From positions 1 to 41,148 of the forward strand of contig JAPLKN010000062.1 of NCBI GenBank assembly GCA_026388075.1: a stretch of DNA of 41,148 bases. Direction: 5' to 3'. Under the pieces are notes generated by a model. The model was not told the origin of the DNA, made no database searches, and saw nothing but the letters and a program-made list of their open reading frames with translations. The DNA is from Elusimicrobiota bacterium (GTDB lineage Bacteria > Elusimicrobiota > Endomicrobiia > Endomicrobiales > JAPLKN01). Below, one piece after another: positions 2,896 through 27,379 of this stretch. Numbering within the stretch: the stretch's first letter is position 1; every line of letters starts with the position of its first letter. The translations under genes were made by a program, and so were the position numbers.

Positions 2896-4344
2896 TTAAT
2901 ATTCAACCGAGGGCACTTCAGGAAATTTTATTGGGACTCCGGGTTTATGGCATTCAATAACTCTCATTGACTTCCACTTTCCGCTTAAAAAACGGAACAA
3001 AAATACGAATCCCAAAAGAGCTATATAGACCGATACAATTGTCCATCCCATATATATGCCGCCATGAAATAATTTTATCGCAGCATAGCTGGGCAAAACC
3101 AGCACAAATAAAGAAACTAAAGTTATAACTTTAAACACATAGTGCGTATCTCCCGCTCCCTTAATAGCAGATTCAAAAACAATATTCATTGTATCAAACA
3201 ACGAATAAGCTGCAACGAAACGAAGCAAAATTATCACCAGATTTTGAATAACAGCAAATTCTGCCTGATTATTTTTTGTGGCGAAAGGTAAAATAAAAAT
3301 GCTGGGAAGAATTACATAAAGCAATGATATGGAAGCCATATATCCAAAAGTTATATGAAAAGCGGAATATACGCTTTTTTCGGCAATATCCGGACGGTTT
3401 TTCCCAAGATATTGGCCGACTAATACAGAGATAGCAATTCCTCCGCCAATCATAGGCATAAAGGCTATTGTATTGATATTAAAAGCTATATTGGTTGCGG
3501 CAAGGACAGTAGTTCCTAAAGAGCCGAGTATTAAAATAAATAAAGTAAAACCGGCTATATCAATAAAAAACTGCAGTCCGCTGGGAAATCCAAACCATAC
3601 GATTCTTTTTAATAATCTCCAATTAAACTTCCATCCTTTTAAGGTGTTATATAATTTGTTATTTTCACTTTTTGCAAGTATTACAAAATACATTAAAAAT
3701 GTGGAAACACCTGAAAGAACCGTAGCAATTGCCGCTCCTTTCATTCCCCATTCCGGAAAACCTCCGTAACCGAATATCATCAAATAATCAAGAATTATAT
3801 TGACAAGTGTTCCTATTATATTTACCCACATTACAGTCCATGTTTTTCCCAGCCCAGAAAAAAATCCGGACATTGCGCCGGAAGCAAGCTCCGGAAAAGC
3901 TCCCAGACAAAGAATTTGGAAATAGATTATTTCATTTTTTCTTACGGGAAGATCGTGGCCAATAATATTAAAAATATTCCCGGATTGAAAAGCTAGAACC
4001 AGCAAAATCAAAGAACCTAAAACTGAAATATAAATACCCTGCCAAACCGCAGGCCCTATTATTTCATTTTTTTTCGCTCCGTAATACTGGGCAACAAATG
4101 TTCCGACATAGCTTGCCGTACCCATAAAAATGCTCATCAGAGTAAAATTCAGCATCCCCGACGGCATAGACGCAGCAATAGCTGAAGGAGAATACCATGT
4201 CAAAAACATTCTGTCTATAAAATGCTGGATTGACCATGAACTTGTGCTTAAGATCAACGGGAAAGCAAGAGTTATGAATTCTTTATAACCGCCTTCAGTT
4301 TTCCAGCGGTTAGAAATTGAAAATAATAAATTTTTGATTTTCAC
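2896..4344 (-). CDS. MATE-family multidrug/cation exporter
   Basis: This 482-residue integral membrane protein has about twelve hydrophobic segments arranged as two MatE repeats (near residues 20-180 and 245-410). Family features include LAFPLILSTSSWSIQHFIDRMFL in the first helix, YYGAKKNEI in loop 2-3, GMKGAAIATVLSG in the first repeat and LVGQYLGKNRPDIAEKS in the second. MATE proteins export drugs, metabolites or lipid-linked compounds using Na+ or H+. The start codon is GTG with only a weak upstream AAAGGG. It follows the 32-residue peptide gene by about 50 bases and could be cotranscribed with it. The substrate cannot be inferred. Confidence 0.9.
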   Translation of the reverse strand: MKIKNLLFSISNRWKTEGGYKEFITLAFPLILSTSSWSIQHFIDRMFLTWYSPSAIAASMPSGMLNFTLMSIFMGTASYVGTFVAQYYGAKKNEIIGPAVWQGIYISVLGSLILLVLAFQSGNIFNIIGHDLPVRKNEIIYFQILCLGAFPELASGAMSGFFSGLGKTWTVMWVNIIGTLVNIILDYLMIFGYGGFPEWGMKGAAIATVLSGVSTFLMYFVILAKSENNKLYNTLKGWKFNWRLLKRIVWFGFPSGLQFFIDIAGFTLFILILGSLGTTVLAATNIAFNINTIAFMPMIGGGIAISVLVGQYLGKNRPDIAEKSVYSAFHITFGYMASISLLYVILPSIFILPFATKNNQAEFAVIQNLVIILLRFVAAYSLFDTMNIVFESAIKGAGDTHYVFKVITLVSLFVLVLPSYAAIKLFHGGIYMGWTIVSVYIALLGFVFLFRFLSGKWKSMRVIECHKPGVPIKFPEVPSVEY

Positions 4345-4396
4345 AATGGCAGGAATCCCTTTAATAAATTATTGATATAAAATTATAATTTTAGAG

Positions 4397-4495
4397 CTAT
4401 CCGAATTTTATGATATGTCCCAGCCAAAAAACAAAAGCAATCGCTATGATGTGAACTATCCACCAGCCCGGTTTAGGGAACATAAATCTAAACAT
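4397..4495 (-). CDS. 32-residue single-helix membrane peptide
   Basis: A short open frame begins with ATG at 4495 behind an ideal ribosome-binding site (AAGGAG, 5 bases before the start) and ends with TAG at 4397. The product is one membrane helix after a short basic head, with key residues F4, P7, G10-W11-W12, V14-H15, A20, V22 and G26-H27. It aligns without gaps to the C-terminal tail of the membrane protein encoded at 4760-5254: F, P, GWW, VH, A, V and GH are shared, about 11 identities in 27, and most other positions are conservative. The two genes are about 265 bases apart in the same direction, separated by an inverted-repeat block. The strong start signal and this match support a real gene. 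Its function is unknown. Confidence 0.7.
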   Translation of the reverse strand: MFRFMFPKPGWWIVHIIAIAFVFWLGHIIKFG

Positions 4496-4540
4496 AATTT
4501 CTCCTTACGGATATAATATTAATTTCAAATATTAAACATC

Positions 4541-4718
4541 AAATATCAAAAATACATATCAAAATTTATAATTCTTTACTGCCCATTTTTGGGGGGCAAG
4601 TACCAAGGGTCATGGCTTAAGAATTTATACGGGTTTTTTTCCTAATTCTTGCTACTTGCCCCTTGTTCTGTTATTTTTGATTTTTTATTTGTCATTTTGA
4701 ATTTTGATATTTGATATT
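4541..4718. repeat. Nested inverted-repeat element between the 32-aa and 164-aa genes
   Basis: Outer arms contain CAAATATCAAAA near 4539-4551 and its complement near 4701-4714. Inner arms are GGGGCAAGTA (4593-4602) and TACTTGCCCC (4653-4662), with AAGAATT/AATTCTT complementarity further inside. RNA from either strand could fold into a long hairpin. It looks like a non-coding mobile or REP-like element, and may also act as an attenuator or terminator between the two genes. The whole gap between them (4496-4759) holds nothing else recognisable. Confidence 0.45.
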
Positions 4719-4759
4719 TCATTAATAGCTGCCAATCAAGTTTTAACCTAATTTTGACA

Positions 4760-5254
4760 TTATCGCCATAATAAATGGCCGGCAGAGTATACTAGCGCAA
4801 CTAATACAAAATGAACGCCCCACCATCCCATATTAGGATATCTAAAATATTTTCCAGTGTGAGGGGTATCAACCGCAGCCATGCGGTTTAGATCAAATAG
4901 GGCTTTTCCTATGAAAAACTTTGTGAGAAGAATGGCTATATCTGGAAACGTCGTATTCAGAAATAAACCTTCTAAGGAAATCGGGCCCCTCATATTCGCA
5001 TAGGAAAAATGCGCCATGGTAATTATACCGATGATTACAAAAAATCCGTTAACAACATAGGCATATTGAACAAGATTTCTGAAAAGAAACATAAAAGGTA
5101 TTATAACAATACTTATTATTCCCAAAACAAAAGGTAAAATATATGAAATTGCTTCTGCCGGCGGATGGATTCTTAAATGAAGCAGCCAGCCGCCTAGCGA
5201 AATAAAAAAAAGTCCCGTAATCAGCAAGTATCTGATGTTCTGTTTTTGTGTCAT
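4760..5254 (-). CDS. Five-helix membrane protein of unknown function
   Basis: From ATG at 5254 (GGAAG upstream) the product is 164 residues; an earlier TTG at 5284 would add ten residues without a ribosome-binding site. About five membrane helices are seen: residues 10-30, 36-60, 62-86, 98-125 and 140-160. The last helix, FRYPNMGWWGVHFVLVALVY then SAGHLLW, resembles the separately encoded 32-residue peptide downstream. Two histidines, 12 residues apart in that helix, occur in both. I do not recognise a named family. It begins about 100 bases after the Mg2+ P-type ATPase stop, in the same direction, so a shared transcript or role in ion homeostasis is possible but unproven. Confidence 0.7.
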   Translation of the reverse strand: MTQKQNIRYLLITGLFFISLGGWLLHLRIHPPAEAISYILPFVLGIISIVIIPFMFLFRNLVQYAYVVNGFFVIIGIITMAHFSYANMRGPISLEGLFLNTTFPDIAILLTKFFIGKALFDLNRMAAVDTPHTGKYFRYPNMGWWGVHFVLVALVYSAGHLLWR

Positions 5255-5354
5255 TTTACTTCCACATTTATTTAATAAGAACAACCTTTTGTCTTCAATA
5301 CCTTTCCTATGAAATAATGGTATATATTTAGTCTTTTAGTGTCAAACTGCCACT

Positions 5355-7943
5355 CTATTCGTAACCATTTTTTTTAACAAACCACATTTTAACTTTCTGA
5401 ACCAGGAAAAGATAACTTATAACAATCAGAATTAATGCCACAAAATAAGTTGGAGGCGGAATCACAAATCCGAAATGTGGACCAATAGGCGAGAGTGGAA
5501 TCAAAATTCCAAAAAACACAATTAAAATAGAAGTAAACATAAGAAGTTTACTTGGCATACTTTCCAAAAAAGGAATTTTCCCAGTTCTGATAATATAAAT
5601 TGCTAAAGTCTGGGAACAAAGGGATTCAATGAACCAGCCAGTATGGAACAATTCAGCATTTGAATGAAAAATAAAAAGCATAACGCCGAAAGTTAAAAAA
5701 TCAAATATGGAGCTTATTGGACCAATTGTCAGCATAAATTTTTTAATATAATTTACATTCCATGGCCGCGGCCTTTTAAGATAATCTTCATCAACTTCAT
5801 CAGTCGGAATTGCAGTTTGGGATAAATCATAAAAGAAATTATTTAAAAGAATCTGGATTGGCAGCATCGGGATAAATGGAAGAAATAAACTTCCCCCTGT
5901 CATAGAAAACATATTACCGAAGTTTGAACTTGCACCCATTTTAATATATTTAATGATGTTTCCAAATGTTTTTCTTCCTTCTAAAACGCCAACCTCAAGC
6001 ACCATAAGACTTTTCTTAAGCAATATTATATCGGCTGATTCTTTTGCAATATCAACCGCATTGTCAACTGAGATACCTACATCTGAAGCCTTTAAAGCCG
6101 GAGCATCATTTATTCCGTCGCCCAAATAACCCACTATATGCCCGTTCTGATGCAAAGCATGAATTACTCTTTCTTTTTGAAGAGGCGAAAGGCGTGCAAA
6201 AACTGTTGTGGTTTTAACTTTTTCTTGAAGTTCTTTATCTGAAAGTTTTTCTACCAAATCACCGGTAGTAAGATCTTTTACATCAAGGCCCACCTCGGTG
6301 CAAATTTTTTTAGTAACAAGCTCGTTATCGCCAGTAAGAACCTTTAGTTCAATGCCTAACGCTTTCATGGCGATAATGGCTTTTTCGGCTGACGGTTTTG
6401 GAGGGTCAAGAAAAGCGAGATACCCCAGTAAAACGAGGTCCTTTTCATCTTCTTTTGAATATATTTCTTTTTTCTCTTCAATGTTCTTATATGCGATAGC
6501 CAAAACTCTAAAACCATCGGAACTTAAAGTATCGTATTCTTCCTTAAGGTCTGCTAAAAGGACCTCTTCAATATCCAATATTTCGTTATCAAGTTCATAT
6601 TTCTTGCACCTTTTAAAAATTTCTTCAGGAGCACCTTTCGATATCAGTTTGTGTTTTCCTTCATCTTCAATAACAACTGACATTATCTTTCTTGAAAAAT
6701 CAAAGGGCATTTCATCAAATTTTTTATGCTGTTTTACTAGAACCTCCGAGTGTTTAAGTATAGCTTTATCAAGTAGATTTTTGAGCCCGGTTTGATAAAA
6801 ACTATTGATATATGCCCATTTCAATACTTCGTCGCTTTCTTTTCTAACAACATCGCAATGTTTCTCAAGAACTATTTTATCCATCGTAAGAGTCCCTGTT
6901 TTATCAGTGCACAAAACATCCATCGCTCCAAAGTTTTGTATTGAGCTAAGTCTTTTTACTATCACTCTTTTTTTAGACATGTTTATTGCGCCCTTGGAAA
7001 GATTCATCGCGACTATCATCGGCAGCATTTCAGGGGTAATGCCGACGGCTACTCCTAAGGAAAAAAGGAAGGCTTCAACATAATTTTTTCTCAGGATAGA
7101 ATTTATTGCAAAAATCACGACTATCAACACCATCATCGTCCGGATCATCAGCCAAGTAAAAGTATGGATTCCCTTATCAAATCCTGTTTCCACCCTCATT
7201 GTTGCAAGCCTTTTAGAAAGCTCGCCAAACTGGGTAGAAATCCCCGTTTTGATTACCACTCCAAACGCCGTTCCGCTTACAACAGCCGAACCCATGAATG
7301 CTATATTGTTAAAATCAGCAACAGAACTTTTTCCATTTTTTATTGGAAACGGAAATTTTTCGATAGGAAATGCTTCTCCGGTCAGCGATGCCTGGTTAAC
7401 GAAAAGGTCTTTAGCTGAGATAATCCTTAAATCTGCAGGTATCATATCTCCGGCAGATAAATCAATAATATCCCCGGGAACCAGGAATTTTATTTTTATA
7501 TCTTTTGCAACACCTTCCCTTATTACGGTTGAGGTAGTGCGGACCATTTCGCTTAGCTTTTCAGCCTCTTTCCCGGCACGGTATTCCTGAACGAAAGACA
7601 ATAGGACGCTCATAATTGCCATCAAACTTACTAGAAGAGCGCTTATTTGCTGGCCAAAATACATTGAAAAAGCTGCAATTATTAGTAAAACTACAACAAG
7701 AGGATTGGCGAATTTCAATAAAAATTGGATAAAAATAGTTCTTCTTCTTTTCTTCGCTGGTTCGTTAAGGCCGTATTCTTTAAGTCTAGCCTCTGCCTCT
7801 CCCTCATTCAGCCCGGAAACAGCGGTTCCCAAGTTTCTTAAAACATCTTCCGCTTCAGAACTTATATAATCAAAACTCCAGGATTGCGATTTAACTTTAG
7901 AATGGTTTCTATTAATTAAACCTAACAAATTTATTAATTTCAT
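5355..7943 (-). CDS. mgtA: Magnesium-translocating P-type ATPase (MgtA/MgtB type)
   Basis: The 862-residue protein has the full P-type ATPase plan: N-terminal cation domain (residues 25-65), helices 1-2 (70-120), actuator domain with LTGE (187-190), helices 3-4 with TPEMLPM (303-309), the phosphorylated aspartate in DKTGTLT (347-353), nucleotide-binding domain with FDFSRKIMSVV and KGAPEEI, the GDGINDAP hinge near residue 617, and six C-terminal helices. TPEMLPMIVAMNLSKGA and LLNNFFYDLSQTAIPTDEVD point to the type IIIB magnesium importers rather than calcium pumps. These bring Mg2+ into the cell under starvation. Length matches the family. A candidate promoter lies just upstream; the predicted leader is about 34 bases, too short for a Salmonella-like Mg2+ sensor. 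The five-helix membrane protein follows. Confidence 0.92.
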   Translation of the reverse strand: MKLINLLGLINRNHSKVKSQSWSFDYISSEAEDVLRNLGTAVSGLNEGEAEARLKEYGLNEPAKKRRRTIFIQFLLKFANPLVVVLLIIAAFSMYFGQQISALLVSLMAIMSVLLSFVQEYRAGKEAEKLSEMVRTTSTVIREGVAKDIKIKFLVPGDIIDLSAGDMIPADLRIISAKDLFVNQASLTGEAFPIEKFPFPIKNGKSSVADFNNIAFMGSAVVSGTAFGVVIKTGISTQFGELSKRLATMRVETGFDKGIHTFTWLMIRTMMVLIVVIFAINSILRKNYVEAFLFSLGVAVGITPEMLPMIVAMNLSKGAINMSKKRVIVKRLSSIQNFGAMDVLCTDKTGTLTMDKIVLEKHCDVVRKESDEVLKWAYINSFYQTGLKNLLDKAILKHSEVLVKQHKKFDEMPFDFSRKIMSVVIEDEGKHKLISKGAPEEIFKRCKKYELDNEILDIEEVLLADLKEEYDTLSSDGFRVLAIAYKNIEEKKEIYSKEDEKDLVLLGYLAFLDPPKPSAEKAIIAMKALGIELKVLTGDNELVTKKICTEVGLDVKDLTTGDLVEKLSDKELQEKVKTTTVFARLSPLQKERVIHALHQNGHIVGYLGDGINDAPALKASDVGISVDNAVDIAKESADIILLKKSLMVLEVGVLEGRKTFGNIIKYIKMGASSNFGNMFSMTGGSLFLPFIPMLPIQILLNNFFYDLSQTAIPTDEVDEDYLKRPRPWNVNYIKKFMLTIGPISSIFDFLTFGVMLFIFHSNAELFHTGWFIESLCSQTLAIYIIRTGKIPFLESMPSKLLMFTSILIVFFGILIPLSPIGPHFGFVIPPPTYFVALILIVISYLFLVQKVKMWFVKKNGYE

Positions 7944-15245: not shown

Positions 15246-15890
15246 CTACCTACTGTCTTCACCCATTCCATACTTTCCCACAAGAGGAACAAAAGTGCAG
15301 CCATCAAGCTTTTGAATTGTCATTTTCCCATTAATTTTTTCAACTACAGAACAAAGCTGAAAATAACGTTCCCCCAAAGGAACAACCATTTTTCCTTTTT
15401 CGGCCAGTTGTTCAAAAAGTTTCGGCGGAACTTTATCGGCGGCGGCAGTAATTAGAATTCTGTCAAACGGGGATTTTTCGTCCCAGCCAAGAGTTCCGTC
15501 GCCAGTTTTAAAAAATATATTTTTGTAGCCCATTTTATTCAAAATCCTCTGAGCATTACTTGATAAAACCTCTATTGTCTCAACTGTATAAATTTCATCG
15601 GCCAGTTCAGCCAGGACAGCTGTTTGATAACCTGAGCCCGTACCTATTTCTAATACTTTTTCTTTACCCGTTAGCTTAAGCAATTCGCTCATCCATGCAA
15701 CCATATACGGCTGAGAAATTGTCTGCCCTTCTCCAATGGGAAGAGGCCCGTCTTCATAAGAAAATTCCTTTAGTTTTTCAGGAACAAATAAGTGACGCGG
15801 CACTTTTTCCATTGCAGATAAAACCCTTTTATCGGATATCCCTCTCGGTATAAGCTGTTGCTGAACCATTTGCAATGTATTTTTGTCCAT
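15246..15890 (-). CDS. pcm: Protein-L-isoaspartate O-methyltransferase, intact
   Basis: From ATG at 15890 the enzyme has 214 residues, the normal family length. Motifs in order: [39 protein letters not shown] (active-site Ser), [18 protein letters not shown] (SAM motif I), YTVETIEVLSSNAQ, FKTGDGTLGW, FDRILITAAADKVPP (motif III) and MVVPLGERYFQ. It transfers a methyl group from S-adenosylmethionine to L-isoaspartyl residues, starting their repair. No signal peptide is present, so it acts in the cytoplasm, unlike its exported deleted paralogue. The TTG start at 15923 is rejected: it falls inside a perfect 12-bp inverted repeat. Only 250 bases separate the leader from the ahcY terminator, and the SAM by-product it makes is the ahcY substrate. 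Confidence 0.93.
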   Translation of the reverse strand: MDKNTLQMVQQQLIPRGISDKRVLSAMEKVPRHLFVPEKLKEFSYEDGPLPIGEGQTISQPYMVAWMSELLKLTGKEKVLEIGTGSGYQTAVLAELADEIYTVETIEVLSSNAQRILNKMGYKNIFFKTGDGTLGWDEKSPFDRILITAAADKVPPKLFEQLAEKGKMVVPLGERYFQLCSVVEKINGKMTIQKLDGCTFVPLVGKYGMGEDSR

Positions 15891-15901
15891 ATTATTGAAC
15901 C

Positions 15902-15929
15902 CAAATTTTGCAACAGGTTGCAAAATTTG
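15902..15929 (-). promoter_or_regulatory. Perfect 12-bp inverted repeat in the pcm leader
   Basis: The sequence CAAATTTTGCAA, four bases CAGG, then TTGCAAAATTTG forms a perfect dyad centred about 25 bases before the pcm ATG. It could be an operator for a dimeric regulator or an RNA hairpin near the ribosome-binding region. No matching copy was seen elsewhere in the window. Confidence 0.4.
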
Positions 15930-26492: not shown

Positions 26493-27379
26493 GGGGTCAG
26501 GTCTTGCAATCACACATTCGCAGTTCTTGTTTTTTTAGTTTACGACTCACTGTTGCATAATGAACATTAAGCTCTTTTGCTATCTCTTTCAATTTATACC
26601 CATATTCTTTATATGCTTTGACCATACCGTTTTCTTCAACTAATAGCTTTTTTAGTGCCGGCTTCAACGGTTGCAAATGCTCTTTCGGCACTTCCTTTAG
26701 TTCTTCATTTCCGGATTTGATTCTTTCAATAAAACCGTTGCTCCCATAATATATCTGCCCAACCAACCTTTCCCAAGGTTTATCACTATATCCTTCTTTT
26801 ACGAATCCTGTGTAATCCTTTATCGCTGAAGTCCGTTTATTTGAAAACTGGGATAATACCCAATCTACAAACAAAAACGCGGGCGGTTTTTCTATCCCAA
26901 TAAAAGAACGATAACTGCTCCACTCATACTGTTCTGGGCTTTTACACATCTTTGCACGGACAGGATTCAGAACAATATACCGTGAAAGTTCCAACAGATA
27001 ATTCCCCTTTTCAACATGTATTGCCTTAAACCTTCCCTGAAATATATGTCCGCAACTCTTGTGTTTTCTATTGGAAGACTGCGTATATACTCCGTTCAAT
27101 TGCCTCATGCCTATTGAAAGATTACCCGATGGTGTTTCAATTATAAGATGATAATGATTACTCATCAAACAATACCCATGGCACACCCATTTATATCTTT
27201 CTATCACGGATCCAAGTACCCTTAAGAATTCTTGCCGGTCGGTATCACAATGAAATATCTTCATCCGGGCATTGCCTCTGGATGTAATATGATAAACTGC
27301 TCCTTCGTATGTTAATCTTAATGGCCGTACCATAGCTCAATTATACTTAAAGGATTGTCGCATTGCAAGACCTGACCCC
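26493..27379 (-). mobile_element. REP-associated tyrosine transposase element with 18-bp inverted ends
   Basis: GGGGTCAGGTCTTGCAAT at 26493-26510 is the exact reverse complement of ATTGCAAGACCTGACCCC at 27362-27379, bounding an 887-bp unit with a single transposase gene. The right end lies 8 bases after the stop of the upstream GT2/deacetylase gene; the left end sits at the 5' flank of the GT4 gene. The element therefore inserted into the short gap between two cotranscribed polysaccharide genes. No target-site duplication is visible, as expected of Y1 transposases. Confidence 0.85.
26497..27333 (-). CDS. REP-associated tyrosine transposase (RAYT, Y1_Tnp/IS200-like)
   Basis: The 278-residue protein begins MVRPLRLTYEGAVYHITSRG, the usual start for this family. 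The HUH metal motif is NHYHLIIETP, the candidate nucleophile is the tyrosine of GVYTQSSNRKHK, and FQGRFKAIHVEKGNYLLEL plus YIVLNPVRAKMCKSPEQYEWSSYRSF are the conserved C-terminal part of the domain. Residues 225-270 form a helix-turn-helix (YGYKLKEIAKELNVHYATVS). RAYTs nick single-stranded REP DNA and are domesticated IS200/605 relatives. Its TGA stop lies inside the left inverted end of the element. All motifs are intact, so it is probably functional. Confidence 0.93.
   Translation of the reverse strand: MVRPLRLTYEGAVYHITSRGNARMKIFHCDTDRQEFLRVLGSVIERYKWVCHGYCLMSNHYHLIIETPSGNLSIGMRQLNGVYTQSSNRKHKSCGHIFQGRFKAIHVEKGNYLLELSRYIVLNPVRAKMCKSPEQYEWSSYRSFIGIEKPPAFLFVDWVLSQFSNKRTSAIKDYTGFVKEGYSDKPWERLVGQIYYGSNGFIERIKSGNEELKEVPKEHLQPLKPALKKLLVEENGMVKAYKEYGYKLKEIAKELNVHYATVSRKLKKQELRMCDCKT

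Follow-up and report, generated by a model that had tools for sequence, protein, structure and literature searches.

Cytochrome b559 of photosystem II is unusual in that two polypeptides share one haem, each subunit supplying one histidine near the cytoplasmic side of the membrane, and its function is still unclear (PMC9214863). The cytochrome is present in all oxygenic phototrophs and missing from anoxygenic type II reaction centres, and in one thermophilic cyanobacterium the b559 of photosystem II was assembled haem-free (PMC9214863). A literature search over open-licence papers returned no titles or abstracts on b559-like pairs outside photosystem II. Among other small membrane proteins, KdpF, CydX, CcoQ and AcrZ are one-helix accessory subunits of transporters and oxidases, and cytochrome b561 and the superoxide oxidase CybB are four-helix b-type cytochromes. 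Here we describe what appears to be a new three-part membrane complex, whose subunits A and B resemble the haem-holding pair of b559, a pair hitherto described, in the papers found, only from oxygen-producing photosynthesis.

The window, by which we mean the whole 41,148-nucleotide stretch of DNA that was analysed, carries the locus on its minus strand. Its features are as follows.

4397 to 4495, minus strand: predicted subunit B, a 32-aa single-helix protein, kept beside C in 34 loci, with pN/pS far below 1 in relatives and W, H and G in 31/31 sequences
4501 to 4506, minus strand: ribosome-binding site of B, AAGGAG, just 5' of the ATG, read from the sequence
4515 to 4722, no strand assigned: AT-rich inverted repeat with an inner GC hairpin, which separates C-A from B and has partial copies elsewhere in the genome
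4760 to 5254, minus strand: predicted fused C-A protein, 164 aa, four-helix core C plus helix 5 (A), with homologues in at least four bacterial groups and an AF2 model
4763 to 4855, minus strand: helix A, residues 134-164 of the fused protein, RYPNMGWWGVH...VY..GH, a free gene of 34-45 aa in split loci
5165 to 5179, minus strand: H26-L-R-I-H30, at the predicted outer end of core helix 1, both His in 28/28
5355 to 7943, minus strand: MgtA-type Mg2+ P-type ATPase (TIGR01524, 1044.9 bits), probably outside the module

The short frame encodes MFRFMFPKPGWWIVHIIAIAFVFWLGHIIKFG, and the AAGGAG that the preliminary description had named as its start signal is present. The likeness to the terminal helix of the 164-aa protein that had also been claimed was borne out: an ungapped alignment of B with helix 5 gave 11 identities in 31 positions, and the best 26-mer scored 79 with BLOSUM62, against a mean of 16.1 (sd 6.0, maximum 52, z = 10.4) in 5000 composition shuffles. 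When the 2.1 Mb genome was searched with peptide B, only two matches were obtained, B itself and helix 5 (E = 1.6e-4). Both B and the 164-aa protein fell below the Pfam and NCBIfam cut-offs. The gap between C-A and B is 264 nt in the window, widened by the inverted repeat, and 0-20 nt in most relatives. The inner hairpin of the repeat is GGGGCAAGTACCAAG...CTTGCTACTTGCCCC, and about 10 other places in the genome carry partial copies of the repeat. A gene at 26497-27333 (minus strand) was read as a REP-associated (Y1/TnpA-like) transposase, a possible mover of the dispersed palindromes.

Related genomes keep both the short frame and its start site beside the partner gene. A B gene of 28-37 aa adjoins the partner in 33 further loci, from the window's own phylum, Desulfobacterota, Chitinivibrionales and Kiritimatiellae (at least four groups). 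Homologues of the 164-aa protein were found on Chitinivibrionales, Syntrophobacteraceae, Desulfarculales and Kiritimatiellae contigs, and in each of these cases a B-type frame of 30-36 aa starts right after the stop of the partner. B lies next to C or C-A in 34 of the 35 loci that have a C gene, a count that includes one locus (L075) where the partner could be read in frame over its second half only; a weak match (L115) was left out of the locus set. The exception (L045), on a 3.7 kb contig, carries C but neither A nor B. Of the 30 loci checked, 29 have an SD-like site ahead of B, and B is under purifying selection, with pN of 0.02-0.12 against pS of 0.33-0.67 among six members from one order. 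Across the 295 genomes of the window's phylum, the B profile found the same five genomes as the C-A profile, together with one decayed module. These results indicate that the 32-residue frame is a real, conserved and previously unannotated gene. A spurious ORF was ruled out by its conservation, linkage, start sites and pN/pS.

The module is sporadic, occurring in about 2% of the sampled genomes in the window's phylum and 5% in Desulfobacterota, and plasmids searched by tblastn with C-A gave no match. Two decayed modules were seen: in L114, at about 6770-6850, a lone B-like helix lies behind a C-A remnant, and in L116, at about 4007-4330, an A gene is followed by relics of C.

Subunit A is not always part of a larger protein. 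In split loci (L044, L046-L052, L077, L078 and L117-L119) it is a gene of its own, encoding 34-45 aa, and the partner C has four helices only (about 130-150 aa). Several Desulfobacterota have the split gene order A-B-C, with gaps mostly of a few to about 20 nt; the fused loci, the window among them, have C-A followed by B. Because helix 5 stands as a separate gene in Desulfobacterota, we read the 164-aa protein as a four-helix core C fused to A. The fusion and fission of A and C across loci argues strongly that the three subunits work together. By their sequences, A and B appear to be paralogous, separately conserved one-helix subunits, found together in 34 of the 35 loci with a C gene. By this comparison B is a further subunit in its own right and no stray duplicate of helix 5.

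It is very improbable that B is a free-standing helix 5 copy that acts as a regulator or competitor of the larger protein or of MgtA, in the manner of other one-helix regulators. B truly resembles helix 5 and is of one-helix size, but it is nearly as obligatory as C, A and B differ in sequence yet co-occur, A is itself a free subunit in split loci, and MgtA is mostly missing from the locus. The preliminary description had suggested that such a free helix copy could regulate, compete with or complete the larger protein. The last of these was nearly right, in that the helix 5 unit is a stand-alone subunit elsewhere, whereas regulation and competition do not suit two distinct, separately conserved and co-occurring subunits.

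The residues conserved in the two small subunits follow a common pattern. In B, W (-4), H (0) and G (+11) were found in 31/31 sequences, corresponding to W11, H15 and G26 of the window's protein (W-x3-H-x10-G), and in A both W and H are invariant. Position +12 of B is H in 19/31 and Y in 8/31. A conserved pair of histidines 12 residues apart, as previously claimed, thus failed at its second member, the first being invariant. A site made of paired histidines within one helix was rejected on the variability of +12. In core C, H26, H30, N69 and G76 are present in 28/28 sequences, M80 and G116 in 29/29, D105 in 27/29 and H82 in 23/29 (Asp in 4).

Positive-inside charge counts predict that the N-termini of C-A and B and loop 2 of C-A lie inside. 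Since the charges put the N-terminus and loop 2 inside, the A and B histidines would lie near the cytoplasmic face and H26, H30, H82 and D105 at the outer face. That A and B run parallel, with N-terminus and histidine cytoplasmic, is a prediction from these charge counts only. AF2 modelled C-A as five long helices (pLDDT 90.6, pTM 0.84). B was modelled at low confidence (pLDDT about 56-66) in a C-A/B pseudo-fusion, made from the window's DNA by translating stops as Gly, in which part of the linker came out helical. Fold searches with the five-helix C-A model and with the fused C-A/B model found no PDB match at E<1, so core C gives no functional clue.

All PDB chain sequences were searched with profiles of B, A and A+B, hits being taken at E<=10. 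The B profile gave 28 of 30 matches to b559 beta (best E 0.032), and the A profile gave 26 of 27 to b559 alpha or beta (best E 0.13). With A+B, 29 of 30 matches were cytochrome b559 (best E 0.0039), the next non-b559 match standing at E 0.91. The B consensus fkPgWWiLHivAialmfwLGhl aligned with PsbF. As a control, the reversed B profile gave no b559, with other proteins at E>=0.16, and profiles of helix 1 and helix 3 of the C-A family, equal in depth and length, gave no PDB match at E<=10. An E of about 0.03 alone could be chance, because the reversed control reached E = 0.16. In the reciprocal direction, an HMM built from six PsbF helices and one PsbE helix placed A and B helices of the module at ranks 1-8 among 9,324 six-frame ORFs, with a best E of 0.0049. 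For some members the top-scoring families, though with weak scores, were PF00283 (best E 0.014) and TIGR01333 (best E 0.019); no single A or B sequence reached the curated b559 cut-off of either, and a PF00283 search of the window's own genome missed both A and B.

The PDB search, the reciprocal ranks and the controls thus point to PsbE/PsbF over other proteins, and the likeness is specific and reciprocal, if statistically modest. Modest statistics are expected because only 22 residues align, and 22 residues do not separate homology from convergence. The gene arrangement agrees with the likeness: A and B are paralogous, lie next to each other and have a single helix apiece, with one invariant His and Gly at +11 in each; in fused loci A forms the final helix of C-A. 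It is possible, though we hold it doubtful, that A and B are true homologues of PsbE and PsbF, that is, a haem-bridged two-helix cytochrome outside oxygenic photosynthesis, in other bacterial phyla and within a different complex.

An unlikely explanation is that A and B are structural or assembly helices only, whose W/H/G face packs without a cofactor, the b559 likeness being a convergent helix-packing motif. The b559 scores under curated cut-offs and the little information held by 30-residue helices are consistent with this, as is the assembly of b559 without haem in photosystem II of one thermophilic cyanobacterium (PMC9214863). However, packing alone seldom preserves a His without exception in two paralogous helices, and the matched control helices gave no such matches.

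The genes around the module were compared across loci. In the window the MgtA gene lies upstream of C-A on the same strand, as the preliminary description had noted; the pairing it drew from this is weak, since MgtA adjoins the module in only 2/34 loci, the window and L070, from unrelated phyla. The regular linkage expected of a small MgtA-associated regulator was not found, and MgtA as an obligate partner was ruled out on the same count. In L070 the second MgtA-type ATPase (3316-5838, minus strand; TIGR01524, 794 bits) is encoded on the strand of B and some 205 nt downstream of it, and the cases are too few for a link. No gene neighbour of the module was conserved across the loci read. Redox neighbours occur without being conserved. 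In L050 a c-type cytochrome gene lies about 15 nt in front of A; the others are a redoxin (L052), ferritin (L041 and L074) and a flavodiiron protein (L041).

These neighbours bear on a further explanation, which we rate as rather improbable, that A-B-C is a haem-free metal-handling membrane complex in which the A and B histidines and H26/H30/H82/D105 bind Zn, Cu, Fe or Mg, possibly partnering MgtA-type Mg2+ ATPases. Invariant His and Asp at both membrane faces would suit such a role, ferritin neighbours are present in two loci, and random gene order would rarely place MgtA beside the module in two unrelated phyla. Against this, 32 of 34 loci are without an adjacent MgtA, one invariant His per helix with Trp at -4 and Gly at +11 is more in keeping with a b559 haem helix than with a generic metal site, and the A+B profile search points only to b559.

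We return to a haem-binding complex, for which subunit number, His position, the flanking W and G, and predicted orientation all match b559; because of these matches, a haem shared by A and B is the best explanation available. We judge it somewhat more probable than the contrary that C, A and B form a previously undescribed membrane complex in which A and B each give one His to a shared haem b. B would be a subunit of an integral-membrane complex made of the four-helix core C and the paralogous one-helix A and B. A and B would most probably pair side by side with predicted cytoplasmic N-termini and, in the manner of PsbE/PsbF, hold one haem b close to the cytoplasmic face between two histidines, H148 of C-A and H15 of B. 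The conserved polar cluster at the predicted outer face of the core (H26, R28, H30, H82 or Asp, D105) is a candidate second metal or haem site. Such a complex could move electrons within the membrane or from one side of it to the other, perhaps linking a periplasmic donor with the quinone pool, both donor and acceptor being conjectural. The speculative metal or haem site of the preliminary description gains support as far as haem is concerned, although the site would draw a single invariant His from each of helices A and B instead of a pair within one helix.

Compared with b559, A and B are likewise paralogous one-helix subunits encoded side by side and attached to a larger membrane protein. 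In each, a His is preceded by an aromatic W/Y at -4 and followed by Gly at +11, the N-terminal side is basic, and the His lies near the cytoplasmic face (predicted for A and B). In contrast, the Pro at +5 after the His of PsbE/PsbF is missing in A and B, their scores lie below curated cut-offs, and their partner is a four-helix protein of no known family, not D2, to which A can be fused. The putative haem-binding module also differs in belonging to genomes of non-cyanobacterial groups. To our knowledge, none of the named host groups are oxygenic phototrophs.

Like KdpF, CydX, CcoQ and AcrZ, B is a small single-helix protein encoded beside a larger membrane protein. We know of none of these four that is paralogous to a partner-fused helix or has an invariant W-x3-H-x10-G, and profile searches of A and B gave no match to them. 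Core C resembles b561 and CybB in being small and four-helix with conserved His, and electron transfer to quinone is plausible for it; no sequence match to either was found in Pfam, NCBIfam or PDB, and no fold match.

If A and B were true homologues of PsbE and PsbF, the module could be the source of the b559 of photosystem II, or a place to which b559 was exported, and it would offer a simple light-free system for the unsettled function of b559. A b559-like pair with a four-helix partner in other phyla would make the ancestry and basic chemistry of b559 testable without photosystem II. The locus also suggests that genes of about 30 codons, encoding a single helix, can specify conserved parts of membrane complexes yet remain unannotated.

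Two minor observations concern other genes. Around the Kiritimatiellae module in L006 (3000-10300), the genes were read as oxidative-stress and iron functions: desulfoferrodoxin-like, superoxide dismutase, rubrerythrin-like, thiol peroxidase and hemerythrin. Within the window, two genes were read as protein-isoaspartate-methyltransferase-like (1148-1765 and 15246-15923, both minus strand), of which the copy at 1148-1765 seems shortened.
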